DNA from: Prochlorococcus sp. AG-409-B13
GTDB lineage: Bacteria > Cyanobacteriota > Cyanobacteriia > PCC-6307 > Cyanobiaceae
Assembly: GCA_003216035.1 (NCBI GenBank)
Contig: QCJM01000013.1
Location: 1-37,169 of the forward strand
DNA: 37,169 nucleotides
Direction: 5' to 3'
A program made the position numbers and the translations under genes. Of this stretch, positions 16,248-37,169 are shown in pieces; the first letter of the stretch is position 1, and every line of letters starts with the position of its first letter. A model generated the notes under the pieces. It was not told the DNA's origin. It ran no database searches and saw only the letters and a program-made list of their open reading frames with translations.

Positions 16248-16257
16248 TTTTTGAGCC

Positions 16258-16491: not shown

Positions 16492-16539
16492 GTCTTAGGT
16501 GCTCGCGCAACATTAACAGTCGCCTCTGCTTAAACCCTA

Positions 16540-17313: not shown

Positions 17314-17400
17314 GCGTTTGCTTTTTGTTCTTTAATGAGATTCCAATCCTTTGCTTAGGAGGTAAAAGGTGACTTTGCTAAAAACAAAAGGAGAGTTCTG

Positions 17401-18102
17401 ATGAAGCCTGGTGATTCCCAATCTGTGGAGAATTTGTTTAATGATTTAGCACCAAGCTATGACTTGTTTAATGACTTACTTAGTTTTGGATTGCATAGGG
17501 TCTGGAAAAGACAGCTTTTGACTTGGATGCAACCAATTGCTGGAGAGAATTGGTTAGATGTTTGCTGCGGAACAGGTGATCTTGCACTTTCTTTAGCTCG
17601 ATTTGTAAGGCCAGGAGGCACAGTGCTTGGCATTGATTCAGCAGCAAAAACTTTAGAAATAGCGAAAAAAAGGGCGAAAAAAAAGCCTTGGCTTCCATTG
17701 TCTTGGATGCAAGGAGATGCTTTAGATACTGGTTTGCCTGATAATCATTTTGATGGTGCGGTAATGGCTTTTGGTTTGCGTAATATTGTTAACCCAATTG
17801 ATGGGCTTAAGGAATTACATAGAATATTAAAACCGGATGCAAGAGCAGGGATTTTGGATTTCAATCCATTAATTAAGAACTCTTTGCAAGGTCGCTTTCA
17901 GACATTTTATTTGCGCCAGGTTGTTGTACCGTTGGCAGCTCAAGCAGGTTTTAGAGATCATTACTCTTATTTGGAGGAGAGCTTGAGAGTATTCCCGCAA
18001 GGTTCCACTCAGGAGAGCTTGGCTTTGGAAGCTGGATTTAAAAAGGCTTGTCATCGAACTTTGGCTGCAGGACAGATGGGAGCCTTATTAATTCATAATT
18101 GA
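17401..18102 (+). CDS. menG: 2-phytyl-1,4-naphthoquinone (demethylmenaquinone) methyltransferase
   Basis: UbiE/MenG-family SAM methyltransferase, 233 residues. In cyanobacteria it performs the final ring methylation of phylloquinone, the photosystem I cofactor. It opens with the family N-terminus VENLFNDLAPSYDLFNDLLSFGLHRVWKR, followed by the SAM motif WLDVCCGTGDLAL (about 51-63), GDALDTGLPDNHFD and AMAFGLRN-like VMAFGLRNIVNPIDGL. A purine-rich aaaaggagag tract about ten bases before the ATG at 17401 is a good ribosome-binding site. It follows hisF by 87 bases. Confidence 0.93.
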   Translation: MKPGDSQSVENLFNDLAPSYDLFNDLLSFGLHRVWKRQLLTWMQPIAGENWLDVCCGTGDLALSLARFVRPGGTVLGIDSAAKTLEIAKKRAKKKPWLPLSWMQGDALDTGLPDNHFDGAVMAFGLRNIVNPIDGLKELHRILKPDARAGILDFNPLIKNSLQGRFQTFYLRQVVVPLAAQAGFRDHYSYLEESLRVFPQGSTQESLALEAGFKKACHRTLAAGQMGALLIHN

Positions 18103-21591: not shown

Positions 21592-22329
21592 TTACTCAAT
21601 AAAAGAGTTACCTTGTCTAGGATTATAAAGTTCCTTACTTTTTCTAGTTGCAAAAAGATCTCCTGTTTTGAACTTGGCTATCCTTCCATTTGAACACTGA
21701 ATTCTTATCTGTCGCAAATCATAGTCGATTAATTTCCCCTCAATGCCTTCTCCGTTGGATTGATAATATTTTTTAGCATGTATGTTTGATTTGCACAAAT
21801 GAGGTAGTTCAACATCTGGAATTTTGTGCCCTAGAAAATTACAGAGCTTTTCCCATCCATCACCTTTTTCCCAGCAAACCTCAAGGAAATCCTTTGTGCG
21901 GCCTTTGAAATGATTCCTTATATCTTGATTATGCTTATTGTAGTAAGAGATATAATAACTAGGCTCTTGATGAGGATACATAAAGCCAAATACCAATAGA
22001 TTCATCCAGAGCTTCTCTGTTGGCGTATTCTCTGCACCCTTAACCATACTATTGAACCAAATCTCTGATGATTTGCGAGTTGTCAAAATAAATTTTGAAC
22101 CAGAAAATCTTTCATCTAGATACTTGTAGAAGTAAGGGAATGGATGGTGATCAAAGCTTTCATGCTTCTTAACTGTCTGATCGAGATATGAAAGATCCCC
22201 ACACTTTGCTTTCAAAAAAGCAAGGCCATTTAAGCTCATATGATTATAGCCAAGCATCTTAAGGCTTTTTCCCAAGGTTGAACTGCCGGTACGACTCAGC
22301 CCTAATCCAAATACTTTTGGTTTATACAT
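21592..22329 (-). CDS. Sulfotransferase-like protein, paralogue of 36093-36794
   Basis: A 245-residue P-loop sulfotransferase-fold protein. The 5'-PAPS loop is GLGLSRTGSSTLGKSL (about 8-23), and the 3'-phosphate region FILTTRKSSEIWFNSM lies near 80-95. WEKGDGWEKLCNFLG follows, as in Sulfotransfer_4-type families. The C-terminal 60 residues carry an extra segment (GKLIDYDLRQIRIQCSNGRIAKFKTGDLF) that is also present in the second copy beyond glyQ. The likely role is sulfation of a glycan or lipid acceptor; the acceptor is unknown. It converges with the pyruvate kinase-like gene, 22 bases apart. Confidence 0.8.
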   Translation of the reverse strand: MYKPKVFGLGLSRTGSSTLGKSLKMLGYNHMSLNGLAFLKAKCGDLSYLDQTVKKHESFDHHPFPYFYKYLDERFSGSKFILTTRKSSEIWFNSMVKGAENTPTEKLWMNLLVFGFMYPHQEPSYYISYYNKHNQDIRNHFKGRTKDFLEVCWEKGDGWEKLCNFLGHKIPDVELPHLCKSNIHAKKYYQSNGEGIEGKLIDYDLRQIRIQCSNGRIAKFKTGDLFATRKSKELYNPRQGNSFIE

Positions 22330-24513: not shown

Positions 24514-24996
24514 CTAATCCTTCTTAGACCGTTGAAAAATATTTAACGAGATCTTCCTTGTGATTATCTTTTTTCCAATAGAAATTAGGCCAAACTTATT
24601 TAATACTTCTTTTAATATTGCAATTGGACCAAATGTCCAAAAGATTGTTAATGGGATTGTAAGCAACCAGTTTTCACTGCTAAATGATATAATTTTCATA
24701 AATCCCCAAAACCATAGTCCAACTATCCCTGGACCAATAATTATCCATAGCAATATTGATAGAAATATAGCAATCATTTGTCTTGGGTAACTCCAGAAGA
24801 AAAAGAAGGTACTTCCAATAAGAGTAGGAATCCATAATGCTTTTATTCCCAAAAAGAGCCCTTTTAGAATAGGAAAATAAAATAAACCAGTTAAAATAAC
24901 ACTTAAAATAGTTAAGTAAGCAGATTTTCTTTTATTAAACCAGGGTTTTTTACCTCGCATTCCAATGTCATTTAGAACCTCCCAGTGTTTAGACAT
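24514..24996 (-). CDS. Multi-pass membrane protein, unknown function
   Basis: A 160-residue protein with four or five predicted membrane helices (roughly 27-45, 48-66, 71-98 and 105-128) and a basic C-terminal tail (GKKIITRKISLNIFQRSKKD). No recognised motif. The Trp/Phe/Ile-rich composition and AT-rich codons match the island rather than the core. The start at 24996 begins MSKHWEVLNDIGMRG. Confidence 0.6.
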   Translation of the reverse strand: MSKHWEVLNDIGMRGKKPWFNKRKSAYLTILSVILTGLFYFPILKGLFLGIKALWIPTLIGSTFFFFWSYPRQMIAIFLSILLWIIIGPGIVGLWFWGFMKIISFSSENWLLTIPLTIFWTFGPIAILKEVLNKFGLISIGKKIITRKISLNIFQRSKKD

Positions 24997-25242
24997 TGAT
25001 TGCCACTATTCATGATATTCTAAATAGAGATAGCAGGCTTTTGAAACTTTTCATGAACAGTTACTTTCTTTGATATCTCTAGTTATTGCTTATGCGTAGC
25101 GGTTTGACTTCATCTTACAAACTTTACAATTGAAAATCCATTATTATCTTATACTAATATAAGTTTAGCTTAGCTTTATTTAATTATGATCTCACTACAC
25201 TCCTAAAAAAATCCTTTTAAATTTCCAATTAGCCAATATCTG

Positions 25243-26136
25243 ATGAAAGCATTAATTCATATAGGGACCCATAAGACTGCTACAACAGCCTTCCAACACA
25301 TTATGTACAATGGGGCCAAACAATTAAAAGACTTTGGAATTTATTACCCAATAGGACAAAGTTATAGCCATAATCTATTAGCAAGAGAAATAAGAGATGG
25401 AAAAACATCACTTTTAATTGCCCATGCGAAAAAAGCTCTTGATCTAAGTAATGGGGAAGGGATCCTTTTTATTTCATCAGAGGAATTAGAGTATTTACTA
25501 ATAGATCCTGTGAAGGCCGTTAATATTGAGAATGAGTTGCTTTCATTAGGCTATACCGATATTTATTGGAACCTTACTTGCAGGGACCCTTTTAATTATC
25601 TGCAATCTCTTTACGCTGAGCTATCAAAAAATAATGGAATAATTGTAGACTATAAAGAATTAACTTTAGCAATAGTTAAATATGGATACTTTAAGCTTTT
25701 TAGCAAAAAGACATTAAATACCTATGTTTTTGATTATAGTAAATATTGCAATAATTTCAAAGAATTAGTTAACGGCAAACTTTATATCACAAGCTTTAAT
25801 GACTTTGTAAGGAAATTTCCAGGAGAATCTTTGCTAAGAATTGCCTTTGACCTTGCAGGCTCTCCCAAGGTGACAGCCAACTTACTGTTGGAAGAGTACG
25901 GTGTTTTTTACCAAGCAAATATTAATCAAATTAGTAATAAATCTCCTAATGAATTAGATGTTGAAATTAGTTATTCAGCAAAATTTTTTGGGTTCCGTAA
26001 TAAGAAAACTATATTCACAAGAGATACCAATCTAGGGCATTTAATTTGTACTATGGCTGAACAGCGATTGGCACGAAAGAAAGAAATGGAAAAACAATCT
26101 AGAAAGTTATTCAAAGAGACGTTCAAATGCCTATAA
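25243..26136 (+). CDS. Sulfotransferase-like protein
   Basis: A 297-residue protein with a 5'-PAPS-type loop at the extreme N-terminus (IHIGTHKTATTAFQHIMYNG, about 5-24) and ISSEELEYLL near residue 80. WNLTCRDPFNYLQSLYAE has the R-D-P/S pattern of the 3'-phosphate-binding region. It belongs broadly to the P-loop sulfotransferases acting on polysaccharides; the substrate is unknown. It sits just upstream of the most decayed element junction (about 26.2 kb) and may be the cargo of an older unit whose left end I cannot find. Confidence 0.75.
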   Translation: MKALIHIGTHKTATTAFQHIMYNGAKQLKDFGIYYPIGQSYSHNLLAREIRDGKTSLLIAHAKKALDLSNGEGILFISSEELEYLLIDPVKAVNIENELLSLGYTDIYWNLTCRDPFNYLQSLYAELSKNNGIIVDYKELTLAIVKYGYFKLFSKKTLNTYVFDYSKYCNNFKELVNGKLYITSFNDFVRKFPGESLLRIAFDLAGSPKVTANLLLEEYGVFYQANINQISNKSPNELDVEISYSAKFFGFRNKKTIFTRDTNLGHLICTMAEQRLARKKEMEKQSRKLFKETFKCL

Positions 26137-26173
26137 CCAATTATTATTTCAGATCAATATCATTTTTAAGTAT

Positions 26174-26201
26174 TCCTAACAAAACCCTAACCTTTTCTAA
26201 C
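26174..26201 (+). repeat. Right arm sites of the oldest detectable element
   Basis: CCTAAC (ends 26180), CCCTAAC (ends 26191) and TCTAAC (ends 26201) are spaced 11 and 10 bases apart. They precede the decayed core at 26235 by the same distance (37 bases from the last repeat) seen at the intact junctions. Confidence 0.5.
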
Positions 26202-26234
26202 CTTGAAAATGTCTAAACCTAGTCGGGCATAAGA

Positions 26235-26253
26235 TAGCCAATTTAAAGGATAG
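26235..26253 (+). other. Very decayed attachment core (tentative)
   Basis: TAGCCAATTTAAAGGATAG aligns with the intact core TAGTGCACTTCCAGGACAT at about half its positions. The call rests mainly on position: arm repeats lie 37 bases upstream, and the downstream sequence AGAAAGATATAAT is identical to that following the 27522 core. Confidence 0.4.
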
Positions 26254-26376
26254 AAAGATATAATACTTGATACCAAAGTAACTCCATCTTGATTTAATCA
26301 AATTCTAACTCTCACTCTATAGAGAATTGAGATTTCTTTTATCTAATGCATTATTAGCATAAATTCTAGTGAAACA

Positions 26377-27180
26377 CTACTCCTTCTCACCTGGTGAAAA
26401 AGGTGGAATATGAGTGCCAATTCTTCTACTAGTGAACTCCCTTAATTTCGCTTTATGCTTTTCAACTATAAGCATCTGAGGATAATAATGAATACAACGG
26501 ACCCACTGCTGAAGATAATTAGGGTAGCTAAGCCATTTAGAAGTATCTTTTGTCTCAGAAATAAAATTCATACTCTTTATCAATCCACTAATGTAATCAG
26601 CAAATTTATTATTGGTTCCTCCAATATCCTCAATAATATATATGCCTCCAGGATTAATTTTTGGGAAAATGGCCTCAAAACTGGTTGCTTGATGTTTTGT
26701 ATTATGACTTCCATCATCTACACATATATCAATTGATTCCTGTTCCATAACCTTTCTTAAAAAGTTTTTATCTTGCTGAGAACCTATATACACCTCAATA
26801 CCATCTCCTCTATGAATCTCGCATTCTTTTTCAATATCTATTCCTATAATTCGTGAAGCCTTACCGAAATAATCCCTCCACATTTCAAGACTTCCTCCAC
26901 CATAAATTCCAATTTCAAGCAAGTTAACTCTCTGACCTACAAATTTATTTAAATGTCTATGATATGCATCAAAATAATGAAAGTGCTTCCAAATAGGATT
27001 TCTTTCTTTGTTTTCCCAAAAATACTTAAAGAGAGGATTACCTGATAAGGAGCTATGTAATTCGACTTGAAAGTCTGTAAAATTATCAGAATGCAGAGAA
27101 TTAAATACTCTGCTTTTTTCTGAATCTGCAATTGGAGTATCTGATCTAAAATAAGTTCTGGCTCTTTCGTCAAAATCCAT
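26377..27180 (-). CDS. SAM-dependent methyltransferase, MycE/TylE-like
   Basis: A class I methyltransferase of 267 residues from the ATG at 27180 (an upstream ATG at 27201 adds seven hydrophobic residues). The SAM motif is LLEIGIYGGGSLEMWRDYF; GIDIEKEC, VYIGSQQDKNFL and the metal/catalytic CVDDGSHNTKHQATSFEAIFP follow, then GGIYIIEDI. This series is typical of the sugar O-methyltransferases MycE/TylE of macrolide pathways. Here it more likely methylates a surface glycan, as its neighbours are sulfotransferases and a carbamoyltransferase. It is the sole cargo of element E0. Confidence 0.82.
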   Translation of the reverse strand: MDFDERARTYFRSDTPIADSEKSRVFNSLHSDNFTDFQVELHSSLSGNPLFKYFWENKERNPIWKHFHYFDAYHRHLNKFVGQRVNLLEIGIYGGGSLEMWRDYFGKASRIIGIDIEKECEIHRGDGIEVYIGSQQDKNFLRKVMEQESIDICVDDGSHNTKHQATSFEAIFPKINPGGIYIIEDIGGTNNKFADYISGLIKSMNFISETKDTSKWLSYPNYLQQWVRCIHYYPQMLIVEKHKAKLREFTSRRIGTHIPPFSPGEKE

Positions 27181-27279
27181 TAATAGTATATGAATGAACA
27201 TACATATTATAATACTAATATAAACTTAATGGCTAGCTGTATTACCAGGCTTATCAGAACGAAGTAGTAGAGACAGCTG

Positions 27280-27347
27280 GCGTTCCGAGCACTTTCGTGA
27301 GCGATTCTTCAAATCGGAATCTCACACTCATCAGATGCGCTACAAAG
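27280..27347 (+). repeat. 68-bp repeat, copy 1
   Basis: This matches 33290-33357 at 65 of 68 positions. It contains an inverted repeat (GTGAGcgATTC ... GAATCTCAC). Both copies lie roughly 175-180 and 75-80 bases before an attachment core, so the repeat belongs to the right ends of two different elements. Confidence 0.9.
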
Positions 27348-27470
27348 AGATAGTTAGGTCGACGATTCCCCAACAAAAATCCACGCTTTGCTGATTCCTC
27401 CTAACTTTTCCCAACTCGGTTGGGTTCTCAATAAGAAAACTATGAGGAATTGTGACTTGATTAATGACTG

Positions 27471-27488
27471 TTTCCAACATCTCCCAAT
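27471..27488 (+). repeat. Right arm sites of element E0
   Basis: TTTCCAAC (ends 27478) and CCCAAT (ends 27488) are 10 bases apart. They lie 47 and 37 bases before the TGCAC of the core at 27522, identical in spacing to the E2 right end. Further TCCTAAC/CCCAAC copies at 27399-27415 suggest an additional collapsed junction. Confidence 0.65.
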
Positions 27489-27521
27489 ATTTCGGGAAGT
27501 AAAAGTCAGTGAGTATGGGAA

Positions 27522-27540
27522 TAGTGCACTTACAGTACAG
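27522..27540 (+). other. Attachment core copy (decayed glyQ 5' end)
   Basis: TAGTGCACTTACAGTACAG matches the glyQ start region at 16 of 19 positions. It is preceded by the same 42-base leader (TTTCGGGAAGTAAAAGTC...) as the intact copy at 33429. Confidence 0.8.
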
Positions 27541-27580
27541 AAAGATATAATCCTTTGATGCCAAGGGATCTCAAGGGTGA

Positions 27581-27647
27581 TCCTAACTCTCGAGCTATAT
27601 TACTTTTAGTAATTCGGGAGCAATCCTAACCCTGTGCCCAAGATAGC
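27581..27647 (+). repeat. Left arm sites of element E1
   Basis: ATCCTAAC ends at 27585 and again at 27630. The second copy runs into CCCTGTGCCCAAGATAGC, a motif also present at the E3 left end (33548-33565). Confidence 0.75.
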
Positions 27648-27718
27648 GAAGGATGAATTCGGAAACAAGAAAATCCGGTCAGTTAATCAAGAACCCCATT
27701 CGCATAAGAATTAAAAAT

Positions 27719-28440
27719 CTATTTTAACTCTAACTTTACAATTAATTTGTTATTTATAATATTCTGTAGCAGCTCTTTCTGGCAATCTTTATAATATTTA
27801 TCTAGATCTTTGTGATAATCAAAGAGCTTTTCAATTCCTAGCTGTGAAAATTTATCCAGTAGTATTATGCTTACAGAAGAATTCTTAATCGCTAAGAATT
27901 TAAATAATACTTTTTTTGAAGTTAAATACTCTTGTATAAGACGAATAGCTTTTAAAACAATCCAGCTATCATGGAAGATAATAATTGACTTTTTCCTAAG
28001 AAGTTTCTCACCATATATAAAGTCACGAAAACATGCAATGTCTGTATGCTCTCCATCAATAAACAATAAGTCATATTTACTTTTATTATCGTTGTATTCA
28101 CTAATATCTCCATCAAATGTTATCAACTTGTCTATATTAATACCATTTTTAATGAGCTTTTCTTGCATCAATGACTCTTTAATTTCAGAGTAGTCATATT
28201 TCCCCCCCCTCTCTCGTCGGGTTGTAATTGCCCTCTTTTATCTACTGAAAGTATTCTTCTACAAGAACCATCTCTTAGAAATGGTACTAGAGTACCTCCT
28301 AGGTATGAGCCTATCTCCAAATAATTATATGAGTCAAGGTATCCATTTATAGCCTCTCTTACTAAAAGCAGGGCACGCTTATCTATTTCTGAAGTTTGCG
28401 AGCTTATTGGGAACTCAGTTTGTAAGCACTTAATATCCAT
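27719..28440 (-). pseudogene. SAM methyltransferase split at a G8 tract (frameshift or phase-variable)
   Basis: The first part (28440-28168) reads MDIKCLQTEFPISS and holds the SAM motif YLEIGSYLGGTLVPFL, then RILSVDKRGQLQPDERGGG; it leaves frame at a run of eight G on the coding strand (28202-28209). One more G (or two fewer) joins it to the second part (28171-27719), which supplies KYDLLFIDGEHTDIACFRDF and IIFHDSW, the rest of a class I methyltransferase. The joined protein would be about 240 residues. The remainder looks undamaged, which favours a switchable gene or a sequencing error over old decay. Confidence 0.8.
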
Positions 28441-28821
28441 AGATCGTAATTTTAATAAGGTTGCTCCGTTTATAAAATAAACTTTAAAGACACTTCATAG
28501 ATAGGCTTCTTTAAAACGCCCTGTATAGGCAAGGAGCTTGTCATTGAACGAGTCGTCCTAGGCAATCTAGTCACAAATCCACCCCCACTCCTTTCTGCAT
28601 TTTACTCGACTTCAAAAATGCCATTTTCAATTCATACAAACTTTCTACAAACATAGATCCCACTGTTGGGCTTTTATCAGGCGAATGCATCTATCGCAAA
28701 GCAGAGGTCTACTCAAGCAGGTATTTTTTATTTAGAGACGGAATGAGCAAACGATCCTTATAGGAGCTAGATTCTCCGAAAGGAATTGAAGTAAGTTAAT
28801 GCATAACTCTTCACAAAAATC
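28441..28821. other. Intergenic region inside element E1
   Basis: AT-rich, with no convincing ORF. It presumably holds divergent promoters for the methyltransferase and carbamoyltransferase genes. CCCA-ctgt-TGGG followed by CTTTT (28651-28666) is at most a weak hairpin. Confidence 0.4.
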
Positions 28822-30573
28822 ATGAATATATTGGGGGTTTACGACGGCCACAATGCCAATGCATCTATCGTCAGCGACGGAAATGTTATTGCGGCAGTAG
28901 AAGAAGAGCGTTTCTCAAGAAACAAAAATCATGATGGCCGTAGTAAAGTTCTCGGTCCTCCTATTAATGCAATCAGATTTTGCCTTGAAGCCTGCGATTC
29001 AAAGATAGATGCAATTGCTTATGCTCTAGAAGATCCAATTAAATTACAAAACAACTGTATTAATTCCTACTTTGCAAGTATCGATAATGGATATTACCAA
29101 AGGTTGAAATGCAGATATCTTAAGGGGAAAAAAGTCACGCCTTCTCAATTGATAAATTATCCGCTTAATTATCAGATCAATAGAGTCAAACGTCTAAACA
29201 AATGTTTAGAAGATGCAGGGTTAGATTTGAAAAAAGTTCCACAGATTTTTATCGACCACCATTTATCTCATGCGAGCTCAGCATATTATACATCACCTGT
29301 TGACGACTGCCTAATAGTCACATTAGATGGTAAAGGTGACGATTTATGTGGTTCAGTCTCATTAGGTTTACATGGGTCAATTAAGAGAATTGAAAAGATT
29401 AATTATATTAATTCAATAGCTCGCCTATACGCAGTCATAACAGAAATTTCTGGTTTTCGTCCTTTAAGGCATGAGGGTAAGATTACCGGCCTTGCTGCTT
29501 ACGGAAAGCCTAATCATGAATTAATTAATCGTTTTAGAGAAATAATATCTTCAGAGAATGGGAAATGGAATGGCTCGTTAGACTCGGCCAATCAGTTAGG
29601 TCCATATCCACATACAATGCATGACCAAAACTGCATATATGTCAAACAAATAATTAAGTCAATAAAACCTATGCCCACCTTGATCGATATTGCCGCATCA
29701 GTTCAGAAACATCTAGAGACTGAGGTCTGTAAATTCATTGAACACTTTCTCGCTAGCCAAAGAAAATCATCCCTCCTTCTTGCTGGTGGAGTATTTGCAA
29801 ATGTAAAATTAAACCAAGCTATTCAATCCCTTAAGTTAGTACAGAATATATATATACATCCAGCAATGAGTGATTCTGGACTGTCCGTTGGCGCTGCATT
29901 AAAATTAGCAAATGACAACAAAGAAATTGTCTCCAATAAATTCACTGATGCATTTTTAGGCCCTAGTTATACATCATCAGAAATCAAGAAAGTACTCCTA
30001 AAGAATTCTATTGACTTCTATAAACCTAATAATTTATGCCAAGAATTGGCAGATATTTTGTCTCAAGGAAAAGTAATAGCCCGTTTTAATGGAAAGCTTG
30101 AATATGGTCCCAGGGCTTTAGGGAACCGATCTATTCTTTATCAGACTAATGATATAACTGTAAATAAATGGCTAAATAAGCTTCTTAATAGAACTGAGTT
30201 TATGCCCTTTGCACCTATTACATTGGCTGAATTTTTTGATCAATGCTATCAAAATACCGATGGCGCCCTTTATACATCCCAATTCATGACTATTACATTT
30301 ACTTGTACTCAAAGGATGAGGGAAGAAAGCCCGGCCGTTGTTCATCTTGATGGTACAGCAAGACCACAATTAGTAAGCAAGGAAAATAATCCAAGCCTTC
30401 ATGCAATTTTGTTTCAGTATTACAAAATAACTGGCATCCCAAGCCTTATAAATACTTCCTTTAATGCACACGAAGAGCCAATAGTCTGCTCGCCTGAAGA
30501 AGCAATTAAATCATTTTTCAACTGTAAGCTTGATTATCTACAAATTGGAGACTTTATTGTTAAAAATAATTAG
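28822..30573 (+). CDS. O-carbamoyltransferase, NodU/CmcH/TobZ family
   Basis: A 583-residue two-domain enzyme that transfers carbamoyl from carbamoyl phosphate, via carbamoyl adenylate, to a hydroxyl, commonly of a sugar. The N-terminal Kae1-like domain opens ILGVYDGHNANASIV, with metal-binding DHHLSHASSAYY (about 144-155), TLDGKGDDLCGS, RHEGKITGLAAYGKP and LLAGGVFANVKLNQ. The C-terminal domain has GKLEYGPRALGNRSIL, EFMPFAPI and the LINTSFNAHEEPIVCSPEEA segment. It is complete and full length, and is the main cargo of element E1. The acceptor is unknown; a surface polysaccharide is likely from context. Confidence 0.93.
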   Translation: MNILGVYDGHNANASIVSDGNVIAAVEEERFSRNKNHDGRSKVLGPPINAIRFCLEACDSKIDAIAYALEDPIKLQNNCINSYFASIDNGYYQRLKCRYLKGKKVTPSQLINYPLNYQINRVKRLNKCLEDAGLDLKKVPQIFIDHHLSHASSAYYTSPVDDCLIVTLDGKGDDLCGSVSLGLHGSIKRIEKINYINSIARLYAVITEISGFRPLRHEGKITGLAAYGKPNHELINRFREIISSENGKWNGSLDSANQLGPYPHTMHDQNCIYVKQIIKSIKPMPTLIDIAASVQKHLETEVCKFIEHFLASQRKSSLLLAGGVFANVKLNQAIQSLKLVQNIYIHPAMSDSGLSVGAALKLANDNKEIVSNKFTDAFLGPSYTSSEIKKVLLKNSIDFYKPNNLCQELADILSQGKVIARFNGKLEYGPRALGNRSILYQTNDITVNKWLNKLLNRTEFMPFAPITLAEFFDQCYQNTDGALYTSQFMTITFTCTQRMREESPAVVHLDGTARPQLVSKENNPSLHAILFQYYKITGIPSLINTSFNAHEEPIVCSPEEAIKSFFNCKLDYLQIGDFIVKNN

Positions 30574-31007
30574 TTTAAGTCATCATGTTTAGACTAAGTA
30601 TTTCAGTGAATTATCAACACATAGCTACCATACAATTTTCTTCATTAGTGGAGAATCTATACTTCTGCCTTTCAATTAGGTTGGATCAATTTTGCTCTAA
30701 GCATATTTACTCTTTTAAGTTCATAAGTTAATCCATCCATAATTACATTTATTAATGCCAAGTTGATTTGAGTTACTTTATTATCCGCTAATCCGAATTC
30801 AAGGGCATACTATCTCAAGGTAAATTAATAACAGATAAGAATAAAAAGAATTAAGGTGAGCTCAAATTAAATTGATTTAAAATTATACAAATTTAAAGGA
30901 CCAAAAAAACGGACCAAGCAATATTCCTAATTTTCATAACAGATGCTTAATAGTTCACCAGCAAATTAACCATATTCTTGATTAGGCTACATCTCACGGC
31001 AGTTTCA
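30574..31007. other. Intergenic region before the small element ORF
   Basis: Very AT-rich. I see no ORF with coding character, no RNA gene and no clear terminator after the carbamoyltransferase gene. Confidence 0.4.
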
Positions 31008-31238
31008 ATGTACTGGACACAAAACTTCTGTAAAGATAGAGATGTTTTTATAATTTATAAAGAGTCTATAGAGCCTTGGTTATTTGCCTGCAAGGGATTA
31101 ATCTCTTCAGGTTGTACAATAGCATTGCAAGATGATCAATTAGCTAGTAAATCCAAGCTGGTGAATATATTGAAAGAAGAACGACAAGCTCTCACTTATC
31201 TGCTAATCGCAACCTCATCTTTCGCACTTCTCTTTTGA
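31008..31238 (+). CDS. Small element-end protein, copy in E1
   Basis: A 76-residue ORF from the ATG at 31008 (a TTG at 30978 would extend it). Only the C-terminus is shared with related ORFs at the ends of E2 and E3: KEERQALTYLLIATSSFALLF here, KEEKQALTYLLIASSSIALLF in E2. The tail is a charged helix followed by a hydrophobic helix that runs to the stop. An intrinsic terminator lies just behind. Its recurrence at one end of three elements marks it as an element gene rather than cargo. The function is unknown. Confidence 0.6.
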   Translation: MYWTQNFCKDRDVFIIYKESIEPWLFACKGLISSGCTIALQDDQLASKSKLVNILKEERQALTYLLIATSSFALLF

Positions 31239-31250
31239 GCGTCCGCTATC

Positions 31251-31275
31251 TGCTCCTCTAGCAGGAGCATTTTCT
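31251..31275 (+). terminator. Intrinsic terminator after the E1 small ORF
   Basis: TGCTCCT-ctagc-AGGAGCA followed by TTTTCTT, 12 bases past the stop of the small ORF. An equivalent hairpin follows the E2 copy. Confidence 0.8.
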
Positions 31276-31332
31276 TGCGTGACGTAATCCAGATATCGCT
31301 GTGTTTAATAGCGTTCAGACGCTTAAATAACA

Positions 31333-31442
31333 GTTAGGACAAACGCTTGAATCTAGTTCTTGTCCTAATCGTGTCCTGACGACACATCGCATATGGATTT
31401 GGGTAACAAGTCGTTTCGACCTTGTCCTAACACTGTCCTAAC
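31333..31442 (+). repeat. Right arm sites of element E1
   Basis: GTTAGGAC (inverted, 31333-31340), then TGTCCTAAT (31361), TGTCCTGAC (31372), TGTCCTAAC (31423) and TGTCCTAAC (31434). Within each pair the offset is 11 bases; between pairs it is 62. The last repeat ends 39 bases before the TGCAC of the core at 31481. The E3 right end has the same geometry with a different repeat sequence. Confidence 0.85.
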
Positions 31443-31479
31443 GAATCCAACGAACTGACCCATTGCTTATCACTCCCAT

Positions 31480-31496
31480 ATGCACTTCCAGGACAT
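31480..31496 (+). other. Attachment core copy (glyQ 5' end with ATG)
   Basis: ATGCACTTCCAGGACAT is identical to the glyQ start from its second base on, with ATG in place of GTG. It reads MHFQDI then leaves glyQ (codons GGT GCA TAA follow), so it is an abandoned glyQ start left behind by a later insertion. Confidence 0.9.
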
Positions 31497-31535
31497 CGGT
31501 GCATAATAATTGGTATCACTGCGTTGAATATGGAT

Positions 31536-31553
31536 TTTCCAATCTTTCCCAAC
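31536..31553 (+). repeat. Left arm sites of element E2
   Basis: TTTTCCAAT and TTTCCCAAC, 10 bases apart, lie 62 and 72 bases after the start of the core. They match the E2 right arms almost base for base. Confidence 0.75.
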
Positions 31554-31574
31554 TTTATCCATAAATTCTATAAT

Positions 31575-32759
31575 CTAAACTTTAAGAAGACACCATAAAA
31601 AATATTCACATATGGCCCTGACCACATTTTTATCTAGGTGGCGAGTGCAAGAATCATCATTCCCAAAGCCAGTCATGGGAATTCTTAGGGATACTTCATT
31701 AGCTATCTCAAAAGCAGGAAAATAATATATTTTATTTTCTCCCAGTTTAGGTAGAGCAGCATCTAATGCTACTATTATTTTGGACTTACTTATACTATTC
31801 TCTACTATCGCAGATTTAGATTGACTAAGGTTTTCATTGTTGCTTTTGACCCCTCTGATAGGAATAGGTGAAATAGTTATAACAATCTCAGCAGAGGTTA
31901 TTTTCCTTATGTTAGTAATGATTTCATTCAATGAATTTATTACTATATTTATTGGCGCATGTATTCTTTTTCTACTCTTCAATAAAGCCTTACTATCTAC
32001 TCCTGTGAAACGTCTATTGTGACATGCTAAGGAAACAGCAGCATCGGGGTATATATTTTCTTTGTCAAATGTATGCTCCCATTCCAAAGTATTTCCTAGA
32101 GTAATTATTATTAACTTAGAGCTCTTCAATCCAAAAGTTAAATCGTCTAGCCTACTTCTCTCGTAAAATATGTATTTTTCCAAATCTTCTTTAGTTTGAT
32201 TGTTCTTTGTAATTAATGAAGATGCTATTGAATCAATATGCTTATACCGATCACTTCCTGATTGATTAATTGCTTTTAAGATCGACATTAAAGCTATTGG
32301 AGAGTTTATGTCTTCAGGAAAAGAGTGGTGTCTGCAACAGATCCCTAACGCTGAGAACATATGGGATATGTTCTCAGCGAAGCAAGAACCTATTGCCATA
32401 GCGTCAAAATCAACATCTGTAAAACGAGGGAAGTTTTTTAATGGGAAGGCATGTTTTAAAAAGTCAATTTCAAACGAGTATTCTTCCTGCATAATAGGAA
32501 ACATAAAATTAATATGTTCATCTTTTTCTAGCAATTCATCATTCTTTTTCTGGAGTTGGTTTTTTCTTTTCTTAAGTATTTTTTGCGCAGATTTGCTAAA
32601 GGAGTTTTTAACGTCTTCTCTTATTGATCCAATCTGCCTGAAGGAACTCTGATATCCATATTTATTTATGACTTGAATTAATTCTTGCTCTGTAAATCCT
32701 TTCTCATCTTTACATCTTCTCAGCCAATTATAATTATTTATACCTTCAGGAATTGTCAT
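31575..32759 (-). CDS. GSCFA-domain protein (SGNH-hydrolase-like)
   Basis: A 394-residue protein whose central part (about 120-390) is a GSCFA domain: AMAIGSCFAENISHMF carries the diagnostic G-S-C-F-A block with the nucleophile-like serine/cysteine. LIIITLGNTLEWEHTF, IVITISPIPIRGVKS and the C-terminal YFPAFEIANEVSLRIPMTGFGNDDSCTRHLDKNVVRAIC follow. GSCFA proteins relate to SGNH esterases/acyltransferases and often lie in polysaccharide loci. The N-terminal 110 residues are helical and lysine-rich (a coiled coil at about 55-80). It is the sole cargo of E2. Confidence 0.8.
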   Translation of the reverse strand: MTIPEGINNYNWLRRCKDEKGFTEQELIQVINKYGYQSSFRQIGSIREDVKNSFSKSAQKILKKRKNQLQKKNDELLEKDEHINFMFPIMQEEYSFEIDFLKHAFPLKNFPRFTDVDFDAMAIGSCFAENISHMFSALGICCRHHSFPEDINSPIALMSILKAINQSGSDRYKHIDSIASSLITKNNQTKEDLEKYIFYERSRLDDLTFGLKSSKLIIITLGNTLEWEHTFDKENIYPDAAVSLACHNRRFTGVDSKALLKSRKRIHAPINIVINSLNEIITNIRKITSAEIVITISPIPIRGVKSNNENLSQSKSAIVENSISKSKIIVALDAALPKLGENKIYYFPAFEIANEVSLRIPMTGFGNDDSCTRHLDKNVVRAICEYFLWCLLKV

Positions 32760-32978
32760 TTTGCTAAGGCTAAAAAAACAGAAAAAATAATAGAGCTATA
32801 GTTAGGCAGAAGGTGTAATGAGTTAAAGATATATATGATAGCATGCCAATATGCAACCTATACAATGATTGTAACTAATAAGCCAGAATCTAGTTTTAAG
32901 AAATAAAATCAACATTTTAATAAACTAATATAAGTAATTAAGCATTAAATACCTTTTGGCGTGAAAGCTATAACTATT

Positions 32979-33000
32979 GGCTCCTAACGTGGGAGTCTTT
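32979..33000 (+). terminator. Terminator-like hairpin upstream of the E2 small ORF
   Basis: GGCTCC-taacgtg-GGAGTC followed by TTTCT. No plus-strand gene precedes it, so it may be a leader or attenuator structure ten bases before the ATG of the small ORF. Confidence 0.3.
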
Positions 33001-33009
33001 CTAGCAACA

Positions 33010-33195
33010 ATGACCGTTTAATCATTCACCGCTCGTTCGTCACAAGATTTGATTATCGAATCCGCTCAGCAATTGATTTCTAATCAGTACAGCGAAATTG
33101 ATACTCAGCGCAAACTTCTCTTACATCTAAAAGAGGAAAAGCAAGCGCTGACTTATCTGCTCATTGCGTCTTCTTCTATCGCTCTACTCTTCTAA
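33010..33195 (+). pseudogene. Small element-end ORF, disrupted copy in E2
   Basis: From the ATG at 33010 it reads MTV, then TAA (33019-33021). The same frame continues open for 57 codons: SFTARSSQDLIIESAQQL, SNQYSEIDTQRKLLL, and the shared tail KEEKQALTYLLIASSSIALLF ending at TAA 33195. A C-to-T change (CAA to TAA) would explain the stop. A TTG at 33049 could still give a 48-residue product. An intrinsic terminator follows at 33207-33228, as after the E1 copy. Confidence 0.65.
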
Positions 33196-33206
33196 TCCCT
33201 TTCCAG

Positions 33207-33228
33207 ACCTGCGAAAGCAGGTTTTTTC
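33207..33228 (+). terminator. Intrinsic terminator after the E2 small ORF
   Basis: ACCTGC-gaaa-GCAGGT followed by a T run: a perfect six-pair stem with a GNRA tetraloop. Confidence 0.85.
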
Positions 33229-33289
33229 TTGGGAAGGAATGACAGCAATGCTCTGCTTATCTATCAGACAATCCAGGATGCTCTCAGAA

Positions 33290-33357
33290 GCGTTCTAAGC
33301 ACTTTCGTGAGCGATTCTTCAAATCGGAATCTCACACTCATTAGATGCGCTACAAAG
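33290..33357 (+). repeat. 68-bp repeat, copy 2
   Basis: 65 of 68 positions are identical to 27280-27347. An inverted repeat lies at 33307-33335. It sits just upstream of the E2 right arm sites and core. Confidence 0.9.
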
Positions 33358-33376
33358 TGGTAGTAACCATTCTGAA

Positions 33377-33395
33377 ATTTCCAACTCTTCCCAAC
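33377..33395 (+). repeat. Right arm sites of element E2
   Basis: TTTCCAAC (ends 33385) and TTCCCAAC (ends 33395) lie 47 and 37 bases before the TGCAC of the core at 33432. The following 42 bases (from TTTCGGGAAG at 33397) are almost identical to those before the 27522 core. Confidence 0.8.
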
Positions 33396-33428
33396 TTTTC
33401 GGGAAGTAAAAGTCAGTGGGGATGGGAA

Positions 33429-33447
33429 TAGTGCACTTCCAGGACAT
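33429..33447 (+). other. Attachment core copy (exact glyQ 5' end)
   Basis: TAGTGCACTTCCAGGACAT is identical over 19 bases to 35135-35153, the glyQ start. It reads MHFQDI, then diverges (AATACAG...), leaving an abandoned glyQ start. Confidence 0.93.
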
Positions 33448-33485
33448 AAATACAGTATCCAGTTAGAGAAAGGGATCTAGAGGGT

Positions 33486-33565
33486 GATCCCAACCCAATC
33501 CCCACTTCTGAGCCATATTATTACTAGTAGTTCGTAACGGATCCCAACCCTGTGCCCAAGATAGC
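33486..33565 (+). repeat. Left arm sites of element E3
   Basis: GATCCCAACCC occurs at 33487-33497 and 33540-33550. The second copy is followed by TGTGCCCAAGATAGC, shared with the E1 left end. Confidence 0.75.
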
Positions 33566-33730
33566 AATAGAAAGCTATGCAAATACAATTAGGTCATTGA
33601 ATCACATAATAGAGATGTTTAATTTGCATAATAATTAACGATTTATATATTAGTAAAGAAAAGAAGAAATTAATACCCATTAAACTTTGTATGAAATAAT
33701 ATAAAATGATATCAATCCGGCTCAATTGAA

Positions 33731-34642
33731 TTGATAAAGTTTGTAATTCATGTTGGCCTACCGCGAACAGGCACTACAGTTATACAAAAGCATGCATTGC
33801 CTTTATGCAGAAATAATTATGTAATAACAAAAGCTCCTTTTCAAGGCTCGGCAAGCACTACCTTTACTGGTGGCACTGAAGTATCGCTAATGACACTAAA
33901 AAGTCAACTTGATAGTCAAGATATATCTTTAGAGAAAGGAACTAACAATAAGGCCTTATTAGATATGTTTATAAAAATGTCTGGAGCGCTAGCTATCAAT
34001 GAATTCAAGTATCAGCGGCTATACAAAATAATGACCGACTCGATAACTTCAATAATGAGATTTACTATTCCTTGTGGAATTTTTCTTTCCTCTGAAAGGC
34101 TAATTGACAACACTGCGTCTCTAGATGGAAATTCTAGACACCTCGAGAATGAAGATAAGGAATTTATTATTTATCCTTTCCTAAGATGTTTCAATGGCTT
34201 ATCTAGCCCTTTAATTTCAATTTGCCTGCGAGATCCTATTGCATATCTTAGTTCTAGATATATTAGAACTATGATTCAACGAAACCATAAAGGTCTTATT
34301 CACCTAAGTCCATCAAAATACATTGCAAAGCAATCAACTTTGGAAAACAATAGTCCTGGGACTTCAACATTAACCCATGCAATGCACGAAAAATTTCTAA
34401 ATCAGCTTCGTAAATTCGCAACAGTCAAAGCCTTTGGATTTCAGGAGCTTATTTCCACAAAAGATTTATTTGACCTTCTAGGTCTAGAGGGTGAGAATCA
34501 AATTGCATTTCAAGGTTTCCCTAGAGAGAATGAATCCATTGTTGACAAAGACTCCAAGAAAATCATAAGTGATGAGATTGTTTTAGCTTTAAAGGAATAT
34601 GGTTATTACTCAACCATAATGAAATCAAAACTATATGATTAA
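33731..34642 (+). CDS. Sulfotransferase-like protein
   Basis: A 303-residue protein with an N-terminal PAPS-binding loop HVGLPRTGTTVIQKHALPL (about 7-25), IFLSSERLIDN and the 3'-phosphate-type segment SICLRDPIAYLSSRYIRTM. It is a distant relative of the gene at 25243 and not close to the 21592/36093 pair. The start is a TTG at 33731, immediately before the conserved loop; no ATG is available upstream. It is the sole cargo of E3. The acceptor is unknown but is expected to be extracellular glycan. Confidence 0.75.
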   Translation: MIKFVIHVGLPRTGTTVIQKHALPLCRNNYVITKAPFQGSASTTFTGGTEVSLMTLKSQLDSQDISLEKGTNNKALLDMFIKMSGALAINEFKYQRLYKIMTDSITSIMRFTIPCGIFLSSERLIDNTASLDGNSRHLENEDKEFIIYPFLRCFNGLSSPLISICLRDPIAYLSSRYIRTMIQRNHKGLIHLSPSKYIAKQSTLENNSPGTSTLTHAMHEKFLNQLRKFATVKAFGFQELISTKDLFDLLGLEGENQIAFQGFPRENESIVDKDSKKIISDEIVLALKEYGYYSTIMKSKLYD

Positions 34643-34828
34643 TGTAAATTATTAATCCTTTTCCATATGAACGTAAGAGTCACCTCAATCCCTAGACGTA
34701 GATAATGTTATTGTAGATATAAGATCAGCAGATAGGTTTAGAATAGAATCTATAAAAGAAGCAATAAATCTAATACCTCCAGATTCAAGTATTTATATAA
34801 AAGATAAAATCTCTTCGCATCTTTCAGG

Positions 34829-34894
34829 AAAAGAGAAAAACTAGCTTTGACATAACTGCTAATCTCTATCTCGTCCTGAGCGTTTCTCTTCTGA
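34829..34894 (+). pseudogene. Small element-end ORF, remnant in E3
   Basis: In frame it reads REKLALT, stop, LLISISS, stop, AFLF, stop. This matches the shared tail EERQALTYLLIATSSFALLF of the E1/E2 ORFs, with two in-frame stops. The region before it (34643-34828) holds only an unrecognised short open frame without a start codon. Confidence 0.65.
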
Positions 34895-34990
34895 ACGCGC
34901 ATTATTCGCGATCTGAACTGTTAGTTTTTCTTGGATGAACATTTCCAGATATCGCTGGTTCTTCATACCTTCCAGTCGCTTAAATGAAGT

Positions 34991-35100
34991 GTTGGAACAA
35001 CAAGCGTTTCGACTTCTCCGTTCCAACCTCGTTCCAACAAGAAAGTGTCACACTCACTAAATAACAATTTATTTCGAACCTGTTCCAACACGGTTCCAAC
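34991..35100 (+). repeat. Right arm sites of element E3
   Basis: GTTGGAAC (inverted, 34991-34998), then GTTCCAAC at 35020, 35031, 35082 and 35093. Offsets are 11 within pairs and 62 between pairs. The last ends 38 bases before the TGCAC at 35138. The layout equals that of the E1 right end, although the repeat itself differs (GTTCCAAC against GTCCTAAC). Confidence 0.88.
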
Positions 35101-35134
35101 GTTTTCAGCAAACAAAACTACCGTGGGGGCAAGC

Positions 35135-35153
35135 TAGTGCACTTCCAGGACAT
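35135..35153 (+). other. Attachment core at the functional glyQ start
   Basis: TAGTGCACTTCCAGGACAT includes the GTG start codon and the codons for HFQDI. This is the reference copy of the repeated core. Everything upstream of it is element sequence, so the present leader and ribosome-binding site (GTGGGGG at 35123-35129) come from element E3. Confidence 0.9.
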
Positions 35154-36012
35154 TATTTCTGCCCTTAATAAATTTTGGGGTGAACAGGGATGCCTCCTTT
35201 TGCAGCCTTATGACACTGAAAAAGGTGCGGGCACAATGAGTCCTCATACGGTTTTGAGGGCCATTGGCCCCGAACCTTGGGCAGTGTCTTATCCAGAGCC
35301 ATGTAGAAGGCCGACTGATGGACGATATGGAGACAACCCTAATCGAGCTCAACATTATTTTCAGTATCAAGTATTAATCAAACCTTCTCCAGATTCCATT
35401 CAGGAGACTTATCTTTCTTCACTTGAGTCGCTAGGCATTTGTCCGGCTGAACACGATATTCGCTTTGTTGAGGATAACTGGGAATCTCCCACTCTTGGAG
35501 CCTGGGGGGTTGGATGGGAGGTTTGGCTGGATGGGATGGAGGTGACTCAGTTCACATATTTCCAGCAGTGTGGAGGTTTGGATTGTCGACCAGTATCGAT
35601 TGAAATTACCTATGGCCTCGAGAGATTGGCTATGTATCTGCAAAATGTAGAAAACATTTGGGATTTGAGTTGGAATGGGTTAAGAACTTATGGTGATATT
35701 TGGCTTCCTTCTGAAAAAGAACACTGTAAATTTAATTTTGAATCTTCTAATTCAGAACGGCTTCAAAAACTATTTGATTTATATGAGGCAGAGGCTAAGG
35801 ACTTGATATCCCAAAAACTCCCTGTACCAGCTCTTGATTTCGTCTTGAAATGCAGTCATACTTTTAATCTTCTAGAGGCTAGAGGCGTTATTTCTGTAAC
35901 CGAAAGAACTTCAACTATCGCGAGGATTCGATCATTGGCGAAACAAGTTGCAGAGTTATGGCTTTCAGAAAGGGAGTCATTAGGCTTTCCATTACTTAAA
36001 GAGAATCAATAA
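35137..36012 (+). CDS. glyQ: Glycyl-tRNA synthetase alpha subunit
   Basis: Catalytic alpha subunit of the heterotetrameric bacterial GlyRS, 291 residues. The conserved N-terminus [18 protein letters not shown] is followed by [74 protein letters not shown] and [13 protein letters not shown], all expected for GlyQ. The start is GTG at 35137, fixed by the conserved N-terminus. The first six codons are the repeated attachment core, so its promoter and leader have been replaced by incoming elements. glyS is not in the window. It is an essential gene, which would keep the target from being lost. Confidence 0.97.
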
Positions 36013-36092
36013 AAAGTAGAGGAAAGTTTTTGTTGACTTATAAAAATAATACCAATACATATGAATTGCATGAAAGTAATTGCTTGTCGATA

Positions 36093-36794
36093 TTAAGGAA
36101 CGCTAGCATTCCACTTTTTTAGATTAAATGTTCCCCTACGGCCATCTGTAGTCTTAAATATAACTTTGTTTATGTCGTAAGATTGAAGTTTTCCATCGGG
36201 TTTTTCCTTAGGGTTTAATTCTTCCTTATTGGTGGAATTAATTTTCCTTGCTGCATGAGGGAAATTAATTCCTGGTTCTTTTTTTGACAAGAAATTGCAT
36301 ATTTCTTCCCAACCATCACCTTTCTCCCAGCAAACTTCTAAAAAGTCTTTTTCCCGATGCTTGAAATAGTCTCTTATAGTTTGATTGTGTTTATTGTAAT
36401 AATCTATAAAGTGCTTTCTATTTTGATCTGTAATTTTGGTATACCCATATACTAAAAGATTGATCCAGAGATGGAGATCAGGGGTAAGGGCTTCGTCAGT
36501 ATGTTGGAGGCTATTTAACCATTTCTCTGGTGTAATTCTTGTGGTAAGAATAAATTTTGAGTTTGGGTATAGCTGGTCTAATTCTTTATAAAAATAAGGG
36601 TATGGGTGATGCTCGAAACTCTCGTAGTTGTCTACTATTTTTTTCATGAGACTCATGTCCCCACATTTAGCTCGTAAGAATGCATGATAATTTGACCCGT
36701 AATGATTATATTTAAGTATTCTTAGGGCATGGCCTAAAGAACTTTGCCCTGTTCTGCTCAGCCCTAATCCAAAAACTTTTTCTTTGCTTGGCAT
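36093..36794 (-). CDS. Sulfotransferase-like protein, paralogue of 21592-22329
   Basis: A 233-residue P-loop sulfotransferase-fold protein: GLGLSRTGQSSLGHALRIL (about 8-26), FILTTRITPEKWLNSL and KHREKDFLEVCWEKGDGWEEICNFL. It is similar along its full length to the gene at 21592, including the CGD(M/L)S, (E/D)HHP(Y/F)PYFYK and YYNKHNQ(T/D)IR blocks and the C-terminal GKLQSYDINKVIFKTTDGRRGTFNLKKW segment. The two paralogues bracket the accessory island in the same orientation. It converges with glyQ, with an 80-base gap. Confidence 0.8.
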   Translation of the reverse strand: MPSKEKVFGLGLSRTGQSSLGHALRILKYNHYGSNYHAFLRAKCGDMSLMKKIVDNYESFEHHPYPYFYKELDQLYPNSKFILTTRITPEKWLNSLQHTDEALTPDLHLWINLLVYGYTKITDQNRKHFIDYYNKHNQTIRDYFKHREKDFLEVCWEKGDGWEEICNFLSKKEPGINFPHAARKINSTNKEELNPKEKPDGKLQSYDINKVIFKTTDGRRGTFNLKKWNASVP

Positions 36795-36964
36795 CTTGTT
36801 TAGGAGACAGCCTTATTTTATTATTCTACTATAGTTACTGCAAGTCTTTTGGGGACTGGTTTCTTGTGATCGCTATCTTATGCGTAGGTAGATTTATTTT
36901 GCTTATTTATAATATTCAAAAGTTTGGCGTCTTAATTAATTAATTAGATCTATGATAAATTAAA

Positions 36965-37078
36965 GGTATTATTTATTTAGGTCTGCAAGGAGTTTGTTTT
37001 TTGCTATTAGTAAGGGAGAGATGCGCGCACTCTTCTCCCGGTGAGAGTGCTCCTTCGTAAGAAGGTAATGTTTTTCTC
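36965..37078 (+). ncRNA. Candidate small RNA with intrinsic terminator
   Basis: GCACTCT (37027-37033) pairs with AGAGTGC (37044-37050), and directly after it CCTTC-gtaa-GAAGG (37052-37065) precedes TTTTT (37071-37075). No ORF overlaps. Two adjacent stems, the second terminator-like, suggest a short transcript; the 5' end is a guess. Confidence 0.4.
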
Positions 37079-37102
37079 CTGACTCATTGTCCGATTGATT
37101 GC

Positions 37103-37108
37103 TATAAT
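37103..37108 (+). promoter_or_regulatory. Possible promoter -10 reading out of the window
   Basis: TATAAT at 37103-37108 with a TTG-type element (ATTGTCC, 37086-37092) upstream at short spacing. It would transcribe through a G9 run at 37147-37155 towards a gene beyond the edge. Confidence 0.3.
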
Positions 37109-37169
37109 AATATTAAGCACAATTGCAGGTATCATTTAATACGTTAGGGGGGGGGTTACTAGATAATTT

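Follow-up and report, generated by a model that had tools for sequence, protein, structure and literature searches.

The integrative elements of Prochlorococcus called tycheposons were reportedly described by Hackl et al. in 2023. In the portion of PMC10872708 drawn on here, they are assigned to seven tRNA genes and a size of 4-200 kb, and the additive flexible islands of Methylophilaceae are given recurring tRNA-Lys ends. Integration at the 5' end of a protein gene has also been reported. In the part of Farrugia et al. 2015 (PMC4482086) used here, dusA-specific islands and prophages are linked to a tyrosine recombinase family with a core within the 5' end of a conserved protein gene; island sequence substitutes for the 5' end of that gene, and semiconserved direct repeats of ~21 bp are present. 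In Streptococcus pyogenes, SpyCI islands insert site-specifically at the mutL 5' end according to excerpts of three papers (PMC4689407, PMC4129442, PMC3430984), one of whose titles reports rescue via a SpyCI-encoded promoter. Here, a stretch of 37,169 nucleotides (the window) from Prochlorococcus sp. AG-409-B13 (GCA_003216035.1, contig QCJM01000013.1; assembly of 1,450,612 bases in 47 contigs, 72.2% complete) was analyzed, with a focus on positions 26,235-35,153, upstream of glyQ. The 5' end of glyQ is very probably the attachment site of small integrative elements that are moved by a tyrosine recombinase and that stack. This reading is carried by tandem cores, alternative live leaders, stops soon after the abandoned starts, a stack at ispF, for which an apparent empty site is seen, and, beside stacks at EVE-domain genes, a recombinase together with matched repeats, all as read from sequence comparison.

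Like the dusA islands, as far as they are described in the part of PMC4482086 used, the units at glyQ appear from sequence comparison to replace the 5' end of the target with element sequence while keeping the gene open. Unlike them, these units target glyQ, ispF, and EVE-domain genes and form serial stacks of small, recombinase-less cargo units; they also occur in picocyanobacteria, whereas a section heading of that paper names Proteobacterial lineages. SpyCIM1 is reported, in the excerpts cited above, to block mutL transcription when integrated, whereas glyQ here stays an intact open frame and stacks build. Compared with tycheposons as summarized in PMC10872708, the shared features are cargo-carrying integrative elements with tyrosine recombinases in Prochlorococcus; the differences are the target (protein gene starts instead of tRNA genes) and the size (1.3 to 4.0 kb for the window's units, E1 being borderline, against 4-200 kb). 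As for the tycheposon trait of encoding a tyrosine recombinase, none was found on the window contig, but the relatives at EVE stacks do encode one. The Methylophilaceae islands, in the same partial account, likewise have recurring target-gene fragments, but from the 3' end of a tRNA gene and not the 5' end of a protein gene. No relevant paper on glyQ, EVE-domain, or ispF genes with an integrase or Prochlorococcus was found in the open-access literature searched, nor was any description found there of the targets, the serial stacks, or a cut trmD-ispF frame. The original prediction took a glyQ start to be an undescribed target, which stands for glyQ itself in that literature and does not stand for 5'-end replacement in kind, known from dusA and mutL. 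Elements of this kind are known from dusA islands and SpyCI; what looks new is the set of targets (glyQ, ispF, and EVE) together with serial stacking.

Copies of the glyQ start in the window

The essential gene glyQ is preceded in the window by three abandoned copies of its start:

27522..27540, + strand: core copy 1, abandoned GTG, MHLQYRKI and stop (core search, translation)
31478..31496, + strand: core copy 2, abandoned ATG, MHFQDIGA and stop (core search, translation)
33429..33447, + strand: core copy 3, abandoned GTG, MHFQDINTVSS and stop (core search, translation)
35135..35153, + strand: live core, the glyQ start (core search, open reading frame [ORF])
35137..36012, + strand: glyQ, glycine--tRNA ligase alpha subunit, the target gene (PF02091, 7e-143; TIGR00388)

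The 19-base core TAGTGCACTTCCAGGACAT is exact at 35135 and 33429. At 31478 it has 3 mismatches, confined to the three leading bases (the remaining 16 match exactly), and at 27522 it also has 3. The start codons lie at 27524, 31480, and 33431 (abandoned) and at 35137 (live). All four cores are on the + strand, against a chance expectation of 0 and a maximum of 0 in any of 100 shuffles, confirming the repetition that had been noticed in the original prediction. The exact 16-mer TGCACTTCCAGGACAT was present in 52 of 400 family genomes, with more than one copy in the window's genome only, and it sat at the glyQ start in all 29 of the 51 other genomes for which the locus was returned. The core is therefore the coding start of glyQ, copied in the window. 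A search of the whole assembly for the 17-mer with up to 3 mismatches returned the window's four copies and two 3-mismatch matches on contig C3, compared with 1 for a backwards control, so the core is not a dispersed repeat; the concern that it might be a widespread sequence unrelated to glyQ was not borne out.

The abandoned starts in the window end after 8-11 codons, and a stop falls within 3-25 codons in all nine abandoned glyQ starts tested across six genomes. Start-to-start spacings define four units, E0 (1287 bp), E1 (3956 bp), E2 (1951 bp), and E3 (1706 bp), in agreement with the predicted three well-preserved units and an older E0. The cores also lie in similar flanks, as had been claimed: parts of 27280-27647 resemble 33290-33565, and 31270-31301 resembles 34926-34957.

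These features would be explained by recombination inside the core, that is, within the first codons of glyQ. To the left of an insertion, the former leader and start would remain, closed after a few codons by a stop from the element; to its right, a new leader, a start codon, and first codons would come with the element, so that GlyQ stays intact. Stacks would build because each insertion recreates the core. GlyQ would then be expressed from the leader of the element; a scan for sigma-70-like promoters found 15, against 15.4 expected, and was uninformative.

Live and abandoned glyQ leaders in other genomes

Extra glyQ cores lie upstream of glyQ, at different spacings, in five other genomes, at loci L019 (Prochlorococcus AG-409-L21), L135, L136, L137, and L138, while L010 (Prochlorococcus AG-409-B05) and L013 (AG-439-G12) have an element-type leader with one core. 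Three leader types were assigned by reading the sequences: type A is live in L010, L135, L136, and partly L137; type B is live in L138; and type C, with AAACCCAC repeats, occurs in L013 and L019. The three abandoned leaders of the window each match a live leader in another genome, in register, at 75-87% identity. The leader at 27524 matches those of L136 (84%), L137 (77%), L135 (76%), and L010 (75%). That at 33431, whose alignment with live leaders includes a deletion near the core, matches L010 (79% over 301 bp), L136 (78%), and L135 (87% over 112 bp). The leader at 31480 is 84% identical to the L138 live leader over 101 bp and 67% identical to the window's own live leader. The expectation that a live leader elsewhere equals the sequence left of an abandoned core is thus upheld between species (27524 and 33431 against L010 and L135-L137; 31480 against L138). 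When nine abandoned glyQ leaders were compared with the leaders of 12 genomes lacking an element-type start, none of the 12 controls matched. Furthermore, tandem repeats beyond shuffles (at most 15 of 300 shuffles as high) were found in 7 of 11 element-type glyQ leaders, including two of the window's four, and in none of 12 other glyQ leaders or 11 other window genes.

The cores could instead be duplicates of the glyQ leader and start that arose by unequal homologous recombination and trapped unrelated genes, with no site-specific recombinase. In line with this, leaders of the same type recur within the stack. However, identity to the right of each abandoned core stops within the first glyQ codons, different leader types alternate inside one stack, and the same arrangement exists at EVE-domain genes beside a recombinase with matched repeats. 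We consider unequal recombination improbable. An assembly or single-cell amplification chimera is harder still to credit and barely merits consideration: the assembly is indeed fragmented (47 contigs, 72.2% complete), and one 6-kb contig shares 99.7% identity with a contig from another genus, perhaps through cross-contamination, but the extra glyQ starts recur in the five other genomes, and EVE stacks are found in single-contig genomes (G064, G030, G077, and G358).

EVE-domain gene stacks and a tyrosine recombinase family

A profile built from an alignment of four recombinases (cut-off, E up to 1e-10) found relatives in 70 of 400 family genomes and at two places in the window's assembly. We inspected 19 recombinase loci, mostly the best scoring of the 70 matching genomes and including near-identical pairs; recombinases with both ends covered are 479-538 amino acids (aa) long. 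One locus had no upstream DNA. In 13 of the other 18, a divergent tyrosine recombinase starts about 90-160 bp past an abandoned start, ATGACTGAA..AACTACTGGCTAATGAA; in two of these (L161 and L217) the start is divergent and was judged by eye. The live gene of these stacks encodes an EVE-domain protein (PF01878; 5e-53 in L212, 7e-52 in L210). Ten loci have 2-6 EVE starts, the live one being counted where covered, and L213 has six, all abandoned.

The ends of the EVE units match one another. Across 29 intervals, the left and right ends of the same interval shared 103 8-mers compared with 34.3 expected, and none of 20000 permutations was as high. All 28 genomes from a single genus were found to have the EVE gene; by reading, its leaders fall into several types, and 18 of the 28 contain tandem repeats beyond shuffles. 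The abandoned EVE leader of G358 (L210) resembles the live leader of three genus-mates (L276, L286, and L293) at 89.8% over 177 bp, in register, which is the picture that would be expected before and after an insertion. Between the abandoned and the live start of L210 lies one 8.7-kb element (9176-17881, oriented) that carries the recombinase and, after it, genes for type I restriction-modification (N6_Mtase/HsdM, Methylase_S, and ResIII/EcoEI_R).

In tyrosine recombinases, the Arg I motif is usually GxRxxE. The catalytic Tyr and the box II Arg are retained in all 19 recombinases inspected, GN replaces GH in 10 of 19, and the Arg I motif is present in 3 of 19; in its place, 15 of 19 (L161, L162, L204, L206, and L208-L218) have GMSPEE, and one more is atypical. 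PF00589 scored above its cut-off in three of four recombinases scanned. The original prediction had proposed a search for recombinase genes flanked by the same core and repeats. A recombinase with matched repeats stands beside the EVE stacks; the glyQ contigs searched yielded none.

Target genes were sought and not found at recombinase loci L144, L162, L207, and L219. At L144 (G078:C8), znu-like genes (zinc transport, by reading) and ychF enclose what is probably an integrative element, at positions 5219-11658; it carries the recombinase, a relative of the small ORF in the glyQ units, and a gene for a T7-type single-subunit RNA polymerase (PF00940), and a similar recombinase-polymerase pair occurs in G020:C39. 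At L265 (G016:C10), beside an apparent tRNA 3' end, a match resembling a leader continues into an EVE-type start in reverse complement.

A further stack, at ispF, in the window's genome

A relative of a small ORF in the units, at G000:C8, pointed to a stack at ispF in the window's genome. The ispF start and leader are duplicated 1.74 kb upstream, with 88% identity over 68 nt, and the copy ends in RIGNGYDIYPDW and a stop. Further left, trmD ends in EIRTGNEYDIYPDW and a stop, which we read, from the sequence, as a core of greater age, now decayed, with the same element edge after it. The genes between trmD and ispF belong to the 2OG-Fe(II) oxygenase, radical SAM/SPASM, and GSCFA families. Thirty ispF loci were inspected, including that of the window's genome, drawn from 54 genomes with a match among 60 searched. 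In 11, trmD runs in frame into ispF without a stop, apparently the empty site; 8 have an element-type start (MTDS or MTDA) before the core, two (L240 and L249) a variant of it, and 9 show neither state. An element at ispF would supply a stop to TrmD and a start to IspF.

The leader GAGATCCCTTGATATGACTGA (up to 3 mismatches) was found at 23 places in 9 of 10 genomes searched, compared with 0 for a backwards control. Since 21 of the 23 places precede an EVE-type or ispF start, this right-end leader is common to ispF and EVE elements.

Composition of units E0 to E3

The units and their ends at glyQ are as follows:

26234..26268, + strand: left edge of E0 with a decayed core (77% identity to 27521-27555 over 35 nt)
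26254..27521, + strand: E0, the oldest unit; cargo 26377-27201 (- strand) with Methyltransf_24 (flank repeats, Pfam)
27280..27521, + strand: type A right end (leader module) of E0 (similarity to live leaders; no tandem repeat beyond shuffles in the last 140 bp)
27541..31477, + strand: E1; cargo 27719-28440 (- strand), a split methyltransferase-like gene, and 28822-30573 (+ strand), a carbamoyltransferase (NodU-like) (Pfam/NCBIfam)
27580..27633, + strand: E1 left-end repeats ATCCTAAC...ATCCTAACCC (by reading; end-matching at glyQ not significant)
31360..31443, + strand: E1 right-end repeats GTCCTAA...GTCCTAAC...GTCCTAAC, type B leader (tandem repeat beyond shuffles; 84% over 101 bp to the L138 live leader)
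31497..33428, + strand: E2; cargo 31575-32759 (- strand), a GSCFA protein (Pfam)
33093..33428, + strand: type A right end (leader module) of E2 (similarity to L010; no tandem repeat beyond shuffles in the last 140 bp)
33448..35134, + strand: E3; cargo 33731-34642 (+ strand); decayed small-ORF remnant at 34829-34891 (weak, E 0.15)
35020..35101, + strand: E3 right-end repeats GTTCCAACCTCGTTCCAAC and CTGTTCCAACACGGTTCCAAC (tandem repeat beyond shuffles)

Pfam Methyltransf_24 was found on 26377-27201 and 27719-28171, and the E2 GSCFA protein is 45% identical to that of the ispF stack. No match to the E3 cargo was found in Pfam, NCBIfam, or PHROGs. The methyltransferase-like gene of E1 is broken into two ORFs near a C run (~28203), apparently by a frameshift. 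Two Sulfotransfer_4 genes flank the stack, at 21592-22329 and at 36093-36794 (- strand); the latter is directly downstream of glyQ, outside the stack.

The cargo is not conserved at the site. When that of E0-E3 was compared by tblastn with 15 other glyQ loci, the single match was 27719-28171 in L136, at 36%. A blastn comparison of 24900-37169 with 80 glyQ loci (matches starting left of 35130) found, left of glyQ, element ends only, in L010. The possibility that relatives carry the same cargo block at this site, which had been set against the original prediction, was thus not realized in the 15 loci. These data bear on another explanation, in which leaders are swapped between strains by homologous recombination across glyQ, as whole upstream imports, and the stack is the fossil of a dead older integration system. 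The partial decay of cores and small ORFs (26234, 27522, and 34829), the lack of a recombinase found at the site, and the type A leaders common to several genomes all fit such a fossil. However, one abandoned core is identical to the live core and cargo varies between genomes, which suggests fairly recent activity, and we regard the fossil explanation as somewhat unlikely, though deserving of serious weight.

The left limit of the stack was considered relative to ubiE:

17401..18102, + strand: ubiE, 26-91 bp before glyQ in several Synechococcus/Cyanobium loci and 17.0 kb away in the window

We rejected the ubiE-glyQ adjacency as an empty site. The two are close in some Synechococcus/Cyanobium loci, but ubiE was not found upstream in the other Prochlorococcus loci (up to 14 kb covered), leaving ubiE as a distant anchor only. 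No clear core was seen in the left part of the interval (18.1-26.2 kb), and some of its genes have relatives in other Prochlorococcus; for these reasons it is not claimed as stacked units.

A small ORF lies near the right ends of the units:

31119..31238, + strand: near the right end of E1, 3' portion of a conserved small ORF (..LKEERQALTYLLIATSSFALLF) (69% identity to a G028 relative over 39 aa)
31251..31269, + strand: terminator-like hairpin after the E1 small ORF (consensus match only)
33022..33195, + strand: small conserved ORF, E2 right end (similarity search)
33205..33224, + strand: terminator-like hairpin after the E2 small ORF (consensus match only)

Copies ending in LKEEKQALTYLLIASSSIALLF occur near the right ends of E1, E2, and E3, the decayed E3 copy being the weak match listed above. 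The G028 relative is located after a recombinase gene, and further relatives lie downstream of recombinases of the family in L152, L144, L161, and L162.

Searches for a recombinase, tRNA, or phage carrier

No recombinase was found among the ten ORFs between 24514 and 36794, and the family profile had no match on the window contig, in agreement with the predicted absence of a recombinase from the units. The sole recombinase-type name among these ORFs, telomere resolvase TelA, fell on the GSCFA protein with 15 of the 800 bits needed (E 0.008). A PF00589 search of six genomes missed the family in the window's own genome, where the alignment profile detected it. Integrative elements of the tyrosine recombinase type can be cis-mobilisable, with the recombinase supplied in trans. 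As in that kind, direct core repeats are present at both ends of the units, and E0-E3, with cargo between repeats that resemble recombinase arm sites and may act as such, are probably mobilised in trans. The candidate trans recombinases would be the two family members of the assembly, one possibly a contaminant. The contig of the latter, G000:C31, was not used as evidence, since it is 99.69% identical over 6064 bp to G020:C39 and possibly reflects cross-contamination. Such identity between two genera whose glyQ DNA is 75.5% identical indicates very recent transfer or single-cell cross-contamination; both contigs end at the same base. Around the G000:C3 recombinase, similar end repeats lie 4.6 kb apart, but no duplicated gene start was found and this candidate element was set aside.

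No tRNA was found in the window, in the ispF locus L151, or in L208-L218, and among 26 loci scanned single tRNAs occurred only in L162, L010, and L013; a tRNA-targeted tycheposon was rejected, as no tRNA was found at the sites. A phage carrier was also rejected, the core matching viral contigs 8 times, none with glyQ and all in unrelated sequence. In viral contigs, the recombinase profile gave 25 pattern matches, of which 0 were confirmed. A search of 50,697 phage records gave no match for one recombinase of the family, one small protein likewise had none in phage records, and a blastn search of 33200-35400 against phages gave two weak matches, both inside glyQ. That the units are remnants of defective temperate phages or tRNA-targeting tycheposons landed by chance is therefore very unlikely, even though some recombinase relatives adjoin a T7-type RNA polymerase gene.

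Weighing and significance

Several results count against site-specific integration at glyQ. In six genomes, the glyQ contigs yielded no recombinase. The ends of the nine glyQ intervals shared 14 8-mers versus 10.3 expected, with 4184 of 20000 permutations as high, which is not significant; both of these results also agree with unequal recombination. The glyQ comparison across genomes is between species only, and in-register matches to a live leader exist for only four of nine abandoned leaders, the window's three and one from L019. Of the six from other genomes, that of L019 does so, one (L135, 941) matches out of register, and four match none. An abandoned core adjoining ubiE was sought and none was found. 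In the EVE stacks L208-L218, the small ORF has chance-level matches only; as it stands beside other recombinases of the family, the EVE enzymes need not serve glyQ, and the glyQ units may come from a different branch of the recombinase family than the EVE units. Finally, the activity of the recombinases is uncertain because the usual Arg I motif is missing from 15 of 19, with a further one atypical. We nevertheless infer that site-specific recombination is the cause at glyQ, and the original interpretation of integrative elements stacked at its 5' end appears, from the sequences compared, largely to hold.

More broadly, tyrosine-recombinase elements of picocyanobacteria may have made the 5' ends of conserved, even essential genes (glyQ, ispF, and EVE) into exchangeable cassette sites, with each insertion swapping the leader and first codons, mobile elements giving the expression signals, and, at ispF, a continuous trmD-ispF frame being cut in two; we hold the chances of this wider proposal to be evenly balanced. 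The findings suggest a second integration route in Prochlorococcus besides tRNA genes, at protein gene starts, with a candidate recombinase family and defined cores and repeats. The cargo comprises possible surface-modifying enzymes (methyltransferase, carbamoyltransferase, GSCFA, and 2OG oxygenase) and, at one EVE gene, type I restriction-modification. Leader replacement could account for variable gene starts in annotations. The stacks point to repeated replacement of the leaders of essential genes by mobile DNA, and the regulation of these genes thereby becomes testable.

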